Assembly (NCBI GenBank): GCA_902790465.1
Contig: CADASF010000001.1
Location: 1-64,000, forward strand
DNA: 64,000 nucleotides
Source: an uncultured bacterium
Lineage (GTDB): Bacteria > Vulcanimicrobiota > CADAWZ01
Direction: 5' to 3'
Of the stretch, positions 10,457 through 14,728 are shown one piece after another (the first letter of the stretch is position 1; each line of letters opens with the position of its first letter). Below the pieces are notes generated by a model that was not told the DNA's origin, made no database searches, and saw nothing but the letters and a program-made list of their open reading frames with translations. The position numbers and the translations under genes are program-made.

Positions 10457-10480
10457 AACTGTAAAATAAGTAAAACTGTA

Positions 10481-10520
10481 AAATTGAGCTATGAAAAATT
10501 TTTATAGCTCAATTTTTTTT
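10481..10520 (+). terminator. Rho-independent terminator after TPR gene
   Basis: AAATTGAGCTAT (10481-10492) pairs with ATAGCTCAATTT (10504-10515) and is followed by a run of T. It ends the TPR transcript ahead of the radical SAM cluster. Confidence 0.9.
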
Positions 10521-10604
10521 ATTATTTTTTTAAAAAATGACAGAATCTGTCTATATAAATGATCTATAATAAAAATGTCTATAAAAAATGGAGTAAAAAC
10601 AGAA

Positions 10605-11957
10605 ATGAAAGTTTTATTTATAAGTGCCTCAAAACGCTGGGAAGGAAGAACATATAGAGAATATCCATATGGTGTTGGTATCTTGGCTACAATAACACAT
10701 TTAGCAGGTCATGAAGTTCATATACTCGATATGGCTTCTGACTTGCGTGATTACATGGATGTTGTCAAAGATTTTCAACCAGACATTGTTGCAATTTCAT
10801 TTATGTCACCTTCTGTCAAAATAGCTTCAACAGTAATAAAAGACATAAGTAAAAATTCATACTGTAAAATAGTAGCAGGCGGTATTCACAGTACACTATA
10901 TCCTAAATCAATATTAGAATATGGTGCAAATGTCGTAATGATTGGCGAAGGTGAACCAACTATTTTAGATGTACTAAAAGCATTAGATTCTTCAAATAAT
11001 AATATAGAAAAAGAACTTGAAAAAATTCCAAATTTAGTTTTTAAATCAAAATCAAATGAAATTAAATATACTAAAAAAGTTGCTCAACTTGTCAATTTAG
11101 ATGAATTACCTATAATGAATAGAGACCTTTTTGATTTAAATTTATATGCTCATCATACAATTTTGACAAGCAGATGTTGTCCTTATGGTTGCAATTTTTG
11201 CTGTTCATGGGCTCCTGGTGGAAAAGTAGGAAGAGTTATGTCTTCAGATAGGATTTTACAAGAACTTGAATGGCTTGTAAATAAATACGGAAAATTAACT
11301 CTTTACTGGGGAGATGAAATATTCTTTTGGACTCGTGAAGCAAGAATGAATTTCTGTAAAATACTAAAAGAAAAAAAATTACCAATTGAATTTATAGCAC
11401 AATTAAGAGCTGATTTAATAGACAAAGAATTAATAGAAGCATTGTTAAATGTAGGTTGTGTAAAAATTTGTATAGGGGCTGAATCAGGTTCTGATAAACT
11501 TCTAAAAACAGCAAACAAAAAAATCACAGCTTCTCAAATTGAAAAAGCAATATCAACTTGTGTTTCAGTAGGTGTTTCTTGTAAAACTTGGTGGATGGTA
11601 GGTCTACCTGGTGGAGACAAAAAAGAGCAACTAAAAGCACTCGATATCATCGAAAATTCAATGCCAAACGAAGTTGCTGTTCATCAATTTGTACCATTAC
11701 CAGGTTCAAAATTTTGGAACAATGCTAAAGAATATGGAATCAATTTGCCAAGTGAATCTGAATTTGAAAACTTGACTTACTATAGTGATCCCAAAAATGT
11801 AAAATATGACTATCTATCTGGAGAAGAATTACTGGAAATATTGAAAACTTATGAAAACAAACTGTCTTCACTTGGATATGTCTCTACGGACAAAGCGACC
11901 AAAGATTCAAAACATGTATTTACAACACCTTTCCAAAAAACTACATTTAATGTTTAA
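10605..11957 (+). CDS. B12-binding-domain radical SAM protein
   Basis: I choose ATG 10605 (MKVLFIS), the normal N-terminus of the B12-binding fold, with GGAG upstream; an in-frame ATG at 10575 lies at or before the likely start point of a TATAAT at 10565-10570 and has no ribosome site. The 450-residue product has a cobalamin-binding-like Rossmann domain (about 1-140, with PDIVAISFMSP, GGIHSTLYP and MIGEGEPT) and a radical SAM core with CPYGCNFC (C-x3-C-x2-C) near residue 200, GAESGSD and a C-terminal region with LPGSKFW. Such enzymes make methyl transfers or rearrangements on diverse substrates, or act on tRNA or lipids; the substrate cannot be read here. It heads a five-gene plus-strand cluster to 14686. 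Confidence 0.85.
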   Translation: MKVLFISASKRWEGRTYREYPYGVGILATITHLAGHEVHILDMASDLRDYMDVVKDFQPDIVAISFMSPSVKIASTVIKDISKNSYCKIVAGGIHSTLYPKSILEYGANVVMIGEGEPTILDVLKALDSSNNNIEKELEKIPNLVFKSKSNEIKYTKKVAQLVNLDELPIMNRDLFDLNLYAHHTILTSRCCPYGCNFCCSWAPGGKVGRVMSSDRILQELEWLVNKYGKLTLYWGDEIFFWTREARMNFCKILKEKKLPIEFIAQLRADLIDKELIEALLNVGCVKICIGAESGSDKLLKTANKKITASQIEKAISTCVSVGVSCKTWWMVGLPGGDKKEQLKALDIIENSMPNEVAVHQFVPLPGSKFWNNAKEYGINLPSESEFENLTYYSDPKNVKYDYLSGEELLEILKTYENKLSSLGYVSTDKATKDSKHVFTTPFQKTTFNV

Positions 11958-11974
11958 ATGAGGTAAAAATATAA

Positions 11975-12937
11975 ATGTTAAATATAAGCAAATACCTTAG
12001 GATTTCAATTACAAACAAGTGTAACTATACTTGTTATTATTGCCATCGTGAAGGTAATTACTCAGAATCAAATTTTATGCTTACTCCCCAGGATTTACAC
12101 TTTGTTTGTCAAATTGCATTGGAAAATGGTTTCACTAAATTCAAAATAACAGGGGGAGAACCAACTGTACGTCCTGACATCTGCGAGGTAATAAAAGAAA
12201 TTTCTTCTTTAAATCTTCCCGATTTGTCAATGATAACAAATGGGACAAGATTAGCTGAAATGTCAAAATCTCTTTGGGATGCAGGATTGCATAGATTAAA
12301 TATTACATTAAATACAATAAATCCAAATAGACTTGCAAAAATTCAACTTGGCGACAAATTTAAACAAGGTGAAACAGATATCACAAGATACGAATCCATC
12401 ATAAAAAAGGTATTTAGTGGAATAGAAGAAGCACAACGTGTAGGATTTAAAAACATAAAGTTGAATTTTGTATATTTTGATGATAATAGTAAATATGATT
12501 TAGAAGAAGTAGTAGAATTTTCAAAATCATACAGCTGTATTGTTGTACTTCTTCCAATTTTAGATGAAAAATCATATAGTTTAGAATATCTTTACAAATT
12601 TATACAGAAATTTGATATTATAAAAGAAGAGCTTGTAATTGACGATGAAGGAATTCAAAAGAAATTACTTTATTTAAAAAATGGAGCTCGTATATTGTTG
12701 AGATTAGATGAAGTCAATTATTACAAACCTTATGTTTTTTGTAATGAATGTTCGAACACCAAACAATGTCGTGAAGGAATATTTCCAATAAGACTTAGTT
12801 CAGATGGAAAACTAATTCCCTGTATGGCAAATCAAAGCAATAGAATAGATATTGTTAAATTTACAAAAAATAGAGATACAAAATCATTAAACGAGGCATT
12901 CAAAAGGATAAAAGGATGGCATAAAGTAGATGAATAA
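11975..12937 (+). CDS. Radical SAM protein, MoaA-like fold
   Basis: The 320 residues carry CNYTCYYC (C-x3-C-x2-C) for the SAM cluster near residue 17, then KITGGEPTVRPDI and SMITNGTRLA, as in MoaA-type enzymes. A C-terminal Cys set, CNECSNTKQC followed by PIRLSSDGKLIPC, resembles the second 4Fe-4S site of MoaA or SPASM-like proteins. It lacks the C-terminal Gly-Gly of MoaA and no molybdopterin genes are near, so molybdenum-cofactor synthesis is unlikely. GAGGT lies 12 bases before ATG 11975, and the stop overlaps the next gene by 8 bases, so both are probably co-translated. Substrate unknown. Confidence 0.82.
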   Translation: MLNISKYLRISITNKCNYTCYYCHREGNYSESNFMLTPQDLHFVCQIALENGFTKFKITGGEPTVRPDICEVIKEISSLNLPDLSMITNGTRLAEMSKSLWDAGLHRLNITLNTINPNRLAKIQLGDKFKQGETDITRYESIIKKVFSGIEEAQRVGFKNIKLNFVYFDDNSKYDLEEVVEFSKSYSCIVVLLPILDEKSYSLEYLYKFIQKFDIIKEELVIDDEGIQKKLLYLKNGARILLRLDEVNYYKPYVFCNECSNTKQCREGIFPIRLSSDGKLIPCMANQSNRIDIVKFTKNRDTKSLNEAFKRIKGWHKVDE

Positions 12938-13574
12938 AAGACCAATATATATATGTTTTGAAGGTCTTGATGGTTCAGGAAAAACAACTCTATTTAAAAA
13001 AATAGTAAAAAAGCTAAAAGAAGAAGGATTTACCCTTTGCGAAGTATCTCCTACTCAAAAATGTGGTGAGCATGATTTATGGGAAAATATATATGATAAA
13101 TTTAAATTTTTAAAAGATATTATATTTTTCCGTAACTTTTTATATGCACATCGATCAAATATTGTAGCCAAAAATATTGATTGGAATGTCGATCTTCTAA
13201 TAGGAGATAGAAGCATAATAACAAGTTTTATGTGTCGTTGGTCTAAATATGAGTTAAAAAATAAAAAAATAATCGCAAGAGTAAATTTCCTTGAATCAAA
13301 AATACCAACTCCTGATTATGCCATATATTTAGATGTAACTCCTGAAAATCTACAAAAACGCCTAAAATCTCGAGGCAATACTGATATTGACGAAACTGAA
13401 AAACGTTCACAAGAAATGCGTTATGCCTACGATTTTCTAAGGAATAATCCTAAAGCTGTTTCAAGGATTGAAAAAGTGAAATGGCTTGTCATAGATGGTA
13501 ATCCTCCAGAAGAAGAAGTATTTCAAAATGCTTGGGAGGAAATTATATCTTTACTTCAAAATGTAAAAAAATAA
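12930..13574 (+). CDS. Thymidylate-kinase-like P-loop kinase
   Basis: The 214-residue protein has the Walker A motif FEGLDGSGKTT at residues 9-19, a GDRSIITSF segment in the place of the DRY/DRS substrate-binding motif of thymidylate kinases, and a lid-like segment with RLKSRGNTDIDETE. Length and layout match dTMP kinase, but sequence around the thymidylate pocket looks divergent and its location between a radical SAM enzyme and a Gre-like factor is unusual for a housekeeping tmk. It could phosphorylate a modified nucleotide or another small substrate. It starts 8 bases inside the upstream gene. Confidence 0.75.
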   Translation: MNKRPIYICFEGLDGSGKTTLFKKIVKKLKEEGFTLCEVSPTQKCGEHDLWENIYDKFKFLKDIIFFRNFLYAHRSNIVAKNIDWNVDLLIGDRSIITSFMCRWSKYELKNKKIIARVNFLESKIPTPDYAIYLDVTPENLQKRLKSRGNTDIDETEKRSQEMRYAYDFLRNNPKAVSRIEKVKWLVIDGNPPEEEVFQNAWEEIISLLQNVKK

Positions 13575-13598
13575 TTTAATTGAAAGGATATTATTTTT

Positions 13599-14117
13599 AT
13601 GGATAAAACACCCAAAAAACTAACCGAAGAAGGAAGAGAAAAACTGAAATTAGAAATTCAGAAAATGCAGGAAGACCTAAAAAAACTTCGTGAAATCAAA
13701 GCAAATGCTTATACAGCGACTGGAGATACTTGGCATGATAACCCATATTTCAATGAATTGGAAAGAGATGAACAGCAACTCGTTGTAAAAATAGCTTTAG
13801 CAGAAAAAACAATGCATGAAGCAGAAATAGTTGATACTTCAAAACACGATGCAAATACAGTAGAAATAGGTTCAATTTTCAAATGTCATTGCTGTTACAA
13901 TAATGACAAAGATGACATTGAAGAAGAAGTATTTGAAATTGTTGGTCATGGTGAATCAAGTATTGAAGAGGGAAAACTTGATTATGAATCACCAGTAGCT
14001 AAAAATCTCCTTGGACATAAATTAAATGATGTAATAGTTTTTAAGATTCCAGCAGGTGAAGTTGCATATACAATAGTAAAATTTTATAAAAACTGGAAAG
14101 AAGTAGAGGCTGAGTGA
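13599..14117 (+). CDS. GreA/GreB-family transcript cleavage factor homologue
   Basis: The 172-residue protein has the Gre layout: N-terminal antiparallel coiled coil (about 1-80) and C-terminal FKBP-like domain ending SPVAKNLLGHKLNDVIVFKIPAGEVAYTI (about 132-160), the hallmark SPxAxAL-G-xxGD region. Gre factors insert the coiled coil into the RNA polymerase secondary channel and trigger RNA cleavage through two tip acids. The tip reads GDTWHDNPYF instead of GDLSENAEY, so two acids remain but with changed spacing. The middle has an extra segment with CHCCYNN. It may be a specialised Gre paralogue or an inhibitor such as Gfh1. AAAGGA precedes ATG 13599. Confidence 0.75.
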   Translation: MDKTPKKLTEEGREKLKLEIQKMQEDLKKLREIKANAYTATGDTWHDNPYFNELERDEQQLVVKIALAEKTMHEAEIVDTSKHDANTVEIGSIFKCHCCYNNDKDDIEEEVFEIVGHGESSIEEGKLDYESPVAKNLLGHKLNDVIVFKIPAGEVAYTIVKFYKNWKEVEAE

Positions 14118-14119
14118 TA

Positions 14120-14686
14120 ATGCCCAATAAAACAGTTTTTTTTTGTGGACCACATACCTGTGGAAAAACCACAATATTGAAAACTTTAAAAAATGAAGGT
14201 TTTTTCCAAGAAATTGGTTCCGAAATAGGAAAAGATATCTATTATATAAGAAAATTAGTAACGGGTGAACAAAGTGAAGATTTCGAATGGGAAGTAACAA
14301 ATCTTGAACTTGAACGAGACAAAAAATTTTTAAACATTTCTGGACTTGTAGGAATTGAAACTTGGCACCCTGGAAACTTAGCTTATGTTGCTGTTAGAAA
14401 TCCCAAAATACTAGATAAAATTGCAGAAGCTATGAAAAAATCACCATTAATAAATTCTGCTTTTGGAATCTATCTTGATATTCCTCCAAATATCATATTT
14501 CAACGCACAAAAACATTTAAAAACAATAAAGAATGGGCAAAAAATTTCTATTCTGAAATAAATAAACATCTGCCAATGTGTTTTGAAAAATTGGGATTAA
14601 CCGAAAGAATTATAAAAATAGATGCAAGTGGAGATTTTGACTATGTATTGTCAGAAGTAAAATCTCAAATTTTAAAGTTTTTGTAA
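14120..14686 (+). CDS. P-loop nucleoside/nucleotide-kinase-like protein
   Basis: The 188-residue product carries the Walker A motif FFCGPHTCGKTT near its N-terminus and a C-terminal segment IYLDIPPNIIFQRTKTF that resembles the lid region of nucleoside and thymidylate kinases. A Cys sits inside the P-loop, which is uncommon. I start at ATG 14120; GTG 14114 is possible but only 4 bases from the AGAGG site and overlaps the stop of the Gre-like gene. It is the second kinase-like gene in this cluster, not a copy of the one at 12930. No function is assigned. The cluster ends here at a strong terminator. Confidence 0.65.
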   Translation: MPNKTVFFCGPHTCGKTTILKTLKNEGFFQEIGSEIGKDIYYIRKLVTGEQSEDFEWEVTNLELERDKKFLNISGLVGIETWHPGNLAYVAVRNPKILDKIAEAMKKSPLINSAFGIYLDIPPNIIFQRTKTFKNNKEWAKNFYSEINKHLPMCFEKLGLTERIIKIDASGDFDYVLSEVKSQILKFL

Positions 14687-14692
14687 AAAAAT

Positions 14693-14728
14693 AAAAAAGC
14701 CTGCGGATTTGAACTGCAGGCTTTTTTT
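14693..14728. terminator. Bidirectional terminator between convergent genes
   Basis: AAAAAAGCCTGC (14693-14704) pairs with GCAGGCTTTTTT (14716-14727). The A-run on one side and T-run on the other allow it to end both the plus-strand kinase cluster and the minus-strand protease gene. Confidence 0.92.

Follow-up and report, generated by a model that had tools for sequence, protein, structure and literature searches.

We analysed a window of 64,000 nucleotides from an uncultured bacterium of the Vulcanimicrobiota (contig CADASF010000001.1, positions 1 to 64,000), and within it a compact run of five genes, all on the plus strand, which the initial annotation had described as a cluster and a candidate for an undescribed system. 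P1 (10605-11957) encodes a cobalamin-binding radical S-adenosylmethionine (SAM) enzyme of 450 amino acids with a CxxxCxxC motif; P2 (11975-12937), a radical SAM enzyme of the MoaA fold, 320 amino acids long and similar to AbmM of the albomycin pathway; P3 (12930-13574), a thymidylate-kinase-like nucleotide kinase of 214 amino acids; P4 (13599-14117), a Gre-like protein of 172 amino acids; and P5 (14114-14686, with a GTG start), a second kinase of 190 amino acids with the thymidylate kinase/deoxynucleoside kinase (Tmk/dNK) fold. The successive spacings are 17, -8, 24 and -4 bp. On the left, the run is bounded by the terminator of an upstream tetratricopeptide repeat (TPR) gene (10480-10516, plus strand; 17-bp stem, 3-nt loop and T-run; -17.4 kcal/mol, z = -6.7), and on the right by an operon-closing terminator (14693-14727, plus strand; 14-bp stem followed by a T-run; -19.5 kcal/mol, z = -6.4), with none of 200 shuffled sequences as good in either case. 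A GGAG precedes the P1 start at 10605, and an alternative ATG in the same frame, at 10575, lacks an obvious ribosome site. Because the genes are tightly packed between two terminators, they look like one operon, and the five-gene cluster is real, its families being confirmed by Pfam and, for P5, by fold.

The ETWHPGN signature of P5 (14357-14377, plus strand) belongs to a motif, ETWHxGN, that is invariant in all five homologues and was used as bait for an exact-pattern scan of IMG/VR, while a second search compared a two-sequence P5 alignment with 84,980 species genomes. The latter yielded two loci, L045 and L046. In L045, from the spirochaete bin Th196P1bin3 (a name that we read as indicating a termite-gut origin), homologues of all five genes lie together in mostly overlapping reading frames, in an order that differs from that of the window (Gre, B12-radical SAM, MoaA-like radical SAM, Tmk-like, P5-like) and with identities of 55, 42, 38, 35 and 47% for P1 to P5. 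In L046, from a Brocadiaceae bin, four of the five (MoaA-like, Tmk-like, Gre and P5-like) run to the contig end, and P2 is 41-42% identical to its homologues in the two loci. Since P5 alone served as the query, the co-located homologues of P1 to P4 constitute independent evidence, and P1 to P5 almost certainly form one functional unit. The co-occurrence that the initial annotation proposed to look for is therefore present, the homologues being not scattered but co-localised, completely in one other phylum and in four of the five in a third.

The pattern scan of IMG/VR found one element, L038 (seen again under L044). In the region L038:8188-12835, its integrase is directly followed by a kinase similar to P5, a Gre-like protein, a Tmk-like kinase and a methyltransferase-domain protein of 512 amino acids; the kinase-Gre-kinase trio has the appearance of cargo carried by an integrated element. 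In a planctomycete (L053, genome G634), P2 and P5 homologues occur only as a pair, together with further radical SAM genes. Scans of viral contigs with P1, P2 and P5, and a P5 tblastn search of phages and plasmids, gave no further loci. The family was seen in 1 of 149 genomes from the phylum of the window and, among those sampled in two other phyla, in 1 of 393 Spirochaetota and 2 of 294 Planctomycetota, and this patchy distribution suggests horizontal transfer, though the composition of the window is native: there is no compositional sign of recent import, because GC content and GC content at third codon positions (GC3) of P1 to P5 equal those of the flanking DNA.

P1 combines a B12-binding domain (Pfam, 5e-18) with Radical_SAM (2e-18), and its profile matches AprD4 (2e-19) and OxsB (1e-11). 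P2 is likewise a Radical_SAM protein (7e-22), and its profile matches MoaA (3.6e-31) and 8wm2 (4e-27) in the PDB, the latter being AbmM by its name in the structure search. P2 scores under both MoaA family cut-offs (155.6 against 284.05 bits, and 197.3 against 231) and reached 150.5 against 284.05 in a genome-wide search with the MoaA model, which returned 11 weak matches and none above the cut-off. P2 has neither the three-Cys CxxCx13C C-terminal cluster of MoaA nor its Gly-Gly tail, ending instead in ...HKVDE. It carries the N-terminal motif CxxxCxxCHxEG and a four-Cys C-terminal motif, CxxCx5CxEG...C (spacing CxxCx5Cx17C), one Cys of which sits in an insertion absent from MoaA (1tv7), and both the four-Cys motif and the CHxEG variant are common to P2 and AbmM (8wm2). 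An AlphaFold2 (AF2) model of P2 gives template-modelling (TM) scores of 0.67-0.72 with MoaA and 0.65 with AbmM, followed by BlsE and viperins among others, and many of these structural matches are nucleotide or nucleoside enzymes. P2 also matches the PADLOC pVip model (1.8e-18) and reaches 58 bits, under the cut-off of 180, with the curated viperin model NF038283. Its sub-cut-off score, four-Cys motif and missing Gly-Gly rule it out as the MoaA of the genome; by motif (CxxxCxxCHxEG, CxxCx5C...C) and by fold in comparison with 8wm2, P2 is AbmM-like, not MoaA. That it makes an AbmM-like thio-nucleoside, as the analogy would have it, is unlikely. Radical SAM proteins are numerous in this organism, which apparently lacks a molybdenum cofactor MoaA. 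MoaA matches in relatives (L004/L033 and L005/L034) were considered as P2 orthologues and rejected, being true MoaAs in molybdenum loci.

P3 is a Thymidylate_kin protein (Pfam, 3e-16) that stays below the cut-off of the dTMP kinase model TIGR00041 (61.7 against 83.25 bits); in the alignment it has the P-loop EGLDGSGKT and DRS and is without TREPGG, although the motif is present in the genome's own Tmk. Among PADLOC models, P3 matches VakA (3.5e-15), the viperin-associated kinase, and PDC-M51B (1e-11). P5 gave only a sub-threshold Pfam match (AAA_18, 6e-6) and has the P-loop GPHTCGKT; its AF2 model (predicted local distance difference test, pLDDT, 88) has the Tmk/dNK/UMP-CMP-kinase fold, with thymidylate, adenylate and nucleoside kinases as best PDB matches (TM up to 0.75). 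By the initial annotation, its reading would fail if the kinase at 12930 were the only dTMP kinase of the genome; it is not, as a canonical Tmk with TREPGG is encoded elsewhere (G000:C92:3174-3845), which rules out P3 as sole Tmk. A canonical GreA (GDLSENAEYEDAKNE) lies on contig C4 of the same genome. Because canonical Tmk and GreA exist separately and no MoaA exceeds its cut-off, the copies in the cluster are extra, and P2, P3 and P4 are distinct from the housekeeping MoaA, Tmk and GreA.

P4 contains the GreA_GreB C-terminal domain (PF01272, 4e-15; 56 bits against a cut-off of 26.9) and aligns over its full length with GreA (1grj, 1.3e-19) and Gfh1 (6.7e-15). The tip of a Gre protein is the part that reaches the polymerase active site, and here P4 reads GDTWHDNPYF (GDTWHDNPxF in the subfamily) instead of the canonical GDLxENAEY. 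The motif GDTWHDN (13722-13742, plus strand) is the equivalent of GDLxEN in GreA with a one-residue insertion; in most members of the family, one acidic residue per half of the tip is kept. WHDN is invariant among the five P4 homologues and missing from the genome's canonical GreA. Genes for WHDN-Gre proteins adjoin kinase genes in the window and in both L046 and L038, and such a gene heads the same gene run in L045. The initial annotation found the presence of a Gre protein in such a cluster unexpected, a point that can now be refined: because P4 belongs to a WHDN-tip subfamily that travels with the kinases, it is part of the system. In a further locus (L047:7989-9466), a lone WHDN-Gre gene faces a NUDIX hydrolase gene, an arrangement that would fit a nucleotide-cleaning role, in one case only; the contig is classed as viral, yet a ligA-like gene is among the bacterial genes that it carries.

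The surroundings of the cluster are ordinary genes, plsX, recG and the TPR protein gene on the left and, on the opposite strand, clostripain and glmS on the right, and the window contains no Rfam elements or tRNAs. At the site compared for an insertion, the contig of the sister genome G001 (L060:316-4420, G001:C118) stops within clostripain; before glmS, that genome has a PD-(D/E)XK/transposase-like protein, recognised by eye, and repeated lipoprotein-like genes. Of the more distant loci, the region in L053 (5497-12743) begins with an RtcR-like sigma-54 activator, the AbmM-like radical SAM protein, the ETWHxGN kinase and an RHAHR-motif (histidine-phosphatase-like) protein, continues with two radical SAM proteins with SPASM-type C-termini and a glycosyltransferase-like gene, and is a possible separate biosynthetic cluster. 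On a plasmid of Acinetobacter sp. WCHA55 (L071:5155-7989), an NrdG-like 4Fe-4S protein is encoded together with a kinase of the PDC-M51B/VakA type, a radical SAM protein and a small protein with a coiled coil. The flanking genes encode an ATPase similar to PDC-M37B/DolB and, further up, a PIN protein. The radical SAM protein has the four-Cys C-terminal motif of P2 and looks permuted, being without the N-terminal CxxxCxxC and having CNFNC near its C-terminus; a Gre-like identity for the small gene that follows it seemed plausible on inspection but found no support (hhalign E 0.2, no PDB match). Three short, unverified records filed as Listeria/Enterococcus phages (OR848382, OR846994 and PQ520096) encode proteins similar to MoaA or Tmk and seem to be contaminating bacterial DNA.

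Judged by the relatives of its enzymes, the cluster probably has a nucleotide-like product, and the earlier suggestion of an undescribed system with a phosphorylated nucleotide-like product fits the resemblance of P2 to AbmM, P1 to OxsB among others, and P3 to VakA and PDC-M51B. OxsB and AlsB act on deoxyadenosine nucleotides and remodel their sugar, OxsB contracting that of dATP; AlsB, a B12-radical SAM enzyme, has another radical SAM enzyme, AlsA, as its partner in making the nucleoside albucidin (PMC13331322). AbmM swaps sulfur for the nucleoside ring oxygen, with its own cluster as the sulfur donor (PMC12691670), and thmABC gives 4'-thiothymidine by means of a radical SAM enzyme and a kinase, with an NTPase for self-resistance (PMC12691670). 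Prokaryotic viperins produce analogues of nucleoside triphosphates (NTPs) and, in E. coli, can inhibit the activity of T7 RNA polymerase (PMC9642334). The natural nucleoside antibiotic oxazinomycin arrests RNA polymerase once a single molecule of it has been incorporated, and GreA abolishes this arrest at a pause site but not at poly-T tracts (PMC6821320).

We propose that P1 and P2 would alter a nucleoside or nucleotide in its sugar or its base, that P5 and P3 would phosphorylate the modified nucleoside to the mono- and diphosphate, and that the housekeeping Ndk would complete the triphosphate. RNA polymerase would take up this triphosphate, so that transcripts stall or terminate, with a phage or a competitor as the main victim, while P4, with its altered WHDN tip, would enter the secondary channel of the host polymerase and help to cleave the analogue off, allowing the host to survive. 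From the sequence comparisons, the chances that P1 to P5 together make, activate and tolerate a nucleotide analogue appear evenly balanced, and the role of P4 as the antidote may equally hold or fail. The full picture, in which an NTP that poisons RNA polymerase is the joint product of the two radical SAM enzymes and the two kinases and the WHDN-Gre edits it out of host transcripts, would amount to a self-contained weapon, and we advance it tentatively, as somewhat less than an even prospect. We know of no earlier case of transcript proofreading as immunity; this would be the first.

Several observations weigh against this proposal. The altered tip of P4 also recalls Gfh1-type inhibitors, and P4 could inhibit rather than rescue; in L047, the WHDN-Gre occurs without the kinases. 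P1 and P2 are too distant from AbmM, OxsB and viperin for a reaction to be transferred, and the few loci found make the co-occurrence sample small. Gre is absent from L053 and P1 from L046, where the contig ends, and hence not every part is obligatory.

P2 shares with AbmM of albomycin the MoaA fold, a CHxEG that follows the cysteines of the radical SAM motif, and the C-terminal motif of four Cys, and the albomycin pathway also holds a kinase (the nucleoside kinase AbmG) and a second radical SAM enzyme (PMC12691670); however, P2 and AbmM are only about 22% identical by structure alignment, and the present cluster is without conjugation or siderophore genes and has Gre added. Albucidin and oxetanocin likewise involve a B12-radical SAM enzyme acting on nucleotides, joined in albucidin by a further radical SAM enzyme, AlsA (PMC13331322), but P1 has 450 amino acids against 744 in OxsB and is closer to AprD4. 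The pairing of pVip with VakA has a radical SAM enzyme adjoining a Tmk-like kinase, as here, whereas P2 is MoaA/AbmM-like, with a C-terminal Cys motif outside the viperin match, and the cluster adds a B12-radical SAM enzyme, a second kinase and Gre. Both PADLOC PDC-M51 models match in the window, significantly but weakly (PDC-M51A to P1, 1.5e-8; PDC-M51B to P3), yet these two models have no counterpart to P2, P4 and P5, and a published mechanism for them was not found. P4 keeps the coiled coil, C-terminal domain and acidic tip of GreA/GreB, but its tip has the extra residue and WHDN, it is encoded among nucleotide-type enzymes, and it is the second Gre of a genome that already holds GreA. The literature searched gave no description of the five-gene set or of its Gre component. 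The parts come from superfamilies already known, and their logic is close to that of described nucleotide-analogue systems, while there is a real chance that proofreading immunity is new in principle.

What the cluster is for can be read in several ways. That it is a chance neighbourhood of housekeeping paralogues, each superfamily being common, is scarcely credible and is refuted by the co-occurrence of the homologues in L045 and L046: five homologues are adjacent in another phylum, recovered with a single-gene seed and again with overlapping frames, and canonical Tmk and GreA exist separately. A modified nucleotide for the cell's own use, as a cofactor or in tRNA/rRNA hypermodification, with P4 as an RNA polymerase regulator that responds to it, would suit B12-radical SAM and MoaA-fold enzymes, which often build cofactors, and the L053 version, whose neighbours include an RtcR-like sigma-54 activator and more genes of the radical SAM type; but a family so rare and patchy (a single genome of its phylum) is unlike what is expected for a cofactor, and Pfam finds no RNA-binding or transfer domain in P1 to P5, so that we consider this reading quite improbable.

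The other two readings both involve a toxic analogue. As a viperin-type defence against phages, the cluster would keep the analogue within the cell, where it would terminate phage transcription while Gre spares the host polymerase; this is the proposed mechanism expressed as a purpose, and it is somewhat more tentative. The PADLOC matches of P2 to pVip, P3 to VakA and PDC-M51B and P1 to PDC-M51A (the last shared by its L045 homologue, 9e-14) speak for it, the kinase relatives VakA and PDC-M51B stemming from known or candidate defence loci, as do the resemblance of the L038 kinase, beside an integrase, to PDC-M51B (3.9e-32), the plasmid-borne kinase-radical SAM pair of L071 next to a PDC-M37B/DolB-like ATPase, the patchy distribution and the absence of exporter genes from the clusters. 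Against it, P2 fits MoaA models far more strongly than viperin, the locus in the window lies amid housekeeping genes and not in a defence island, and PDC-M51 is a computational candidate on which our literature search found no paper. A secreted nucleoside antibiotic from a small biosynthetic cluster, with Gre as self-resistance, is the more doubtful reading: AbmM is the nearest solved relative of P2 after MoaA, the two-radical-SAM logic recalls albomycin and albucidin, and three genes can suffice, as thmABC shows (PMC12691670), but the clusters of the window, L045 and L046 have no exporter or conjugating enzymes, and two kinases within the producer would activate the toxin. We lean to intracellular defence, which is slightly favoured over a nucleoside antibiotic because of the PADLOC matches, the integrase of L038, the plasmid of L071 and the lack of an exporter, the last not being decisive since thmABC, as described, also has none.

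If the proposed mechanism is true, the cassette joins analogues made by radical SAM enzymes, as in viperin, albomycin and albucidin, with the Gre-mediated rescue of arrested polymerases, and it would open a new way of obtaining antiviral or antibacterial nucleosides. The combination of a WHDN-Gre with an ETWHxGN kinase would then be a ready marker for genome mining, and the cassette would provide a direct test of transcript proofreading as a form of immunity.

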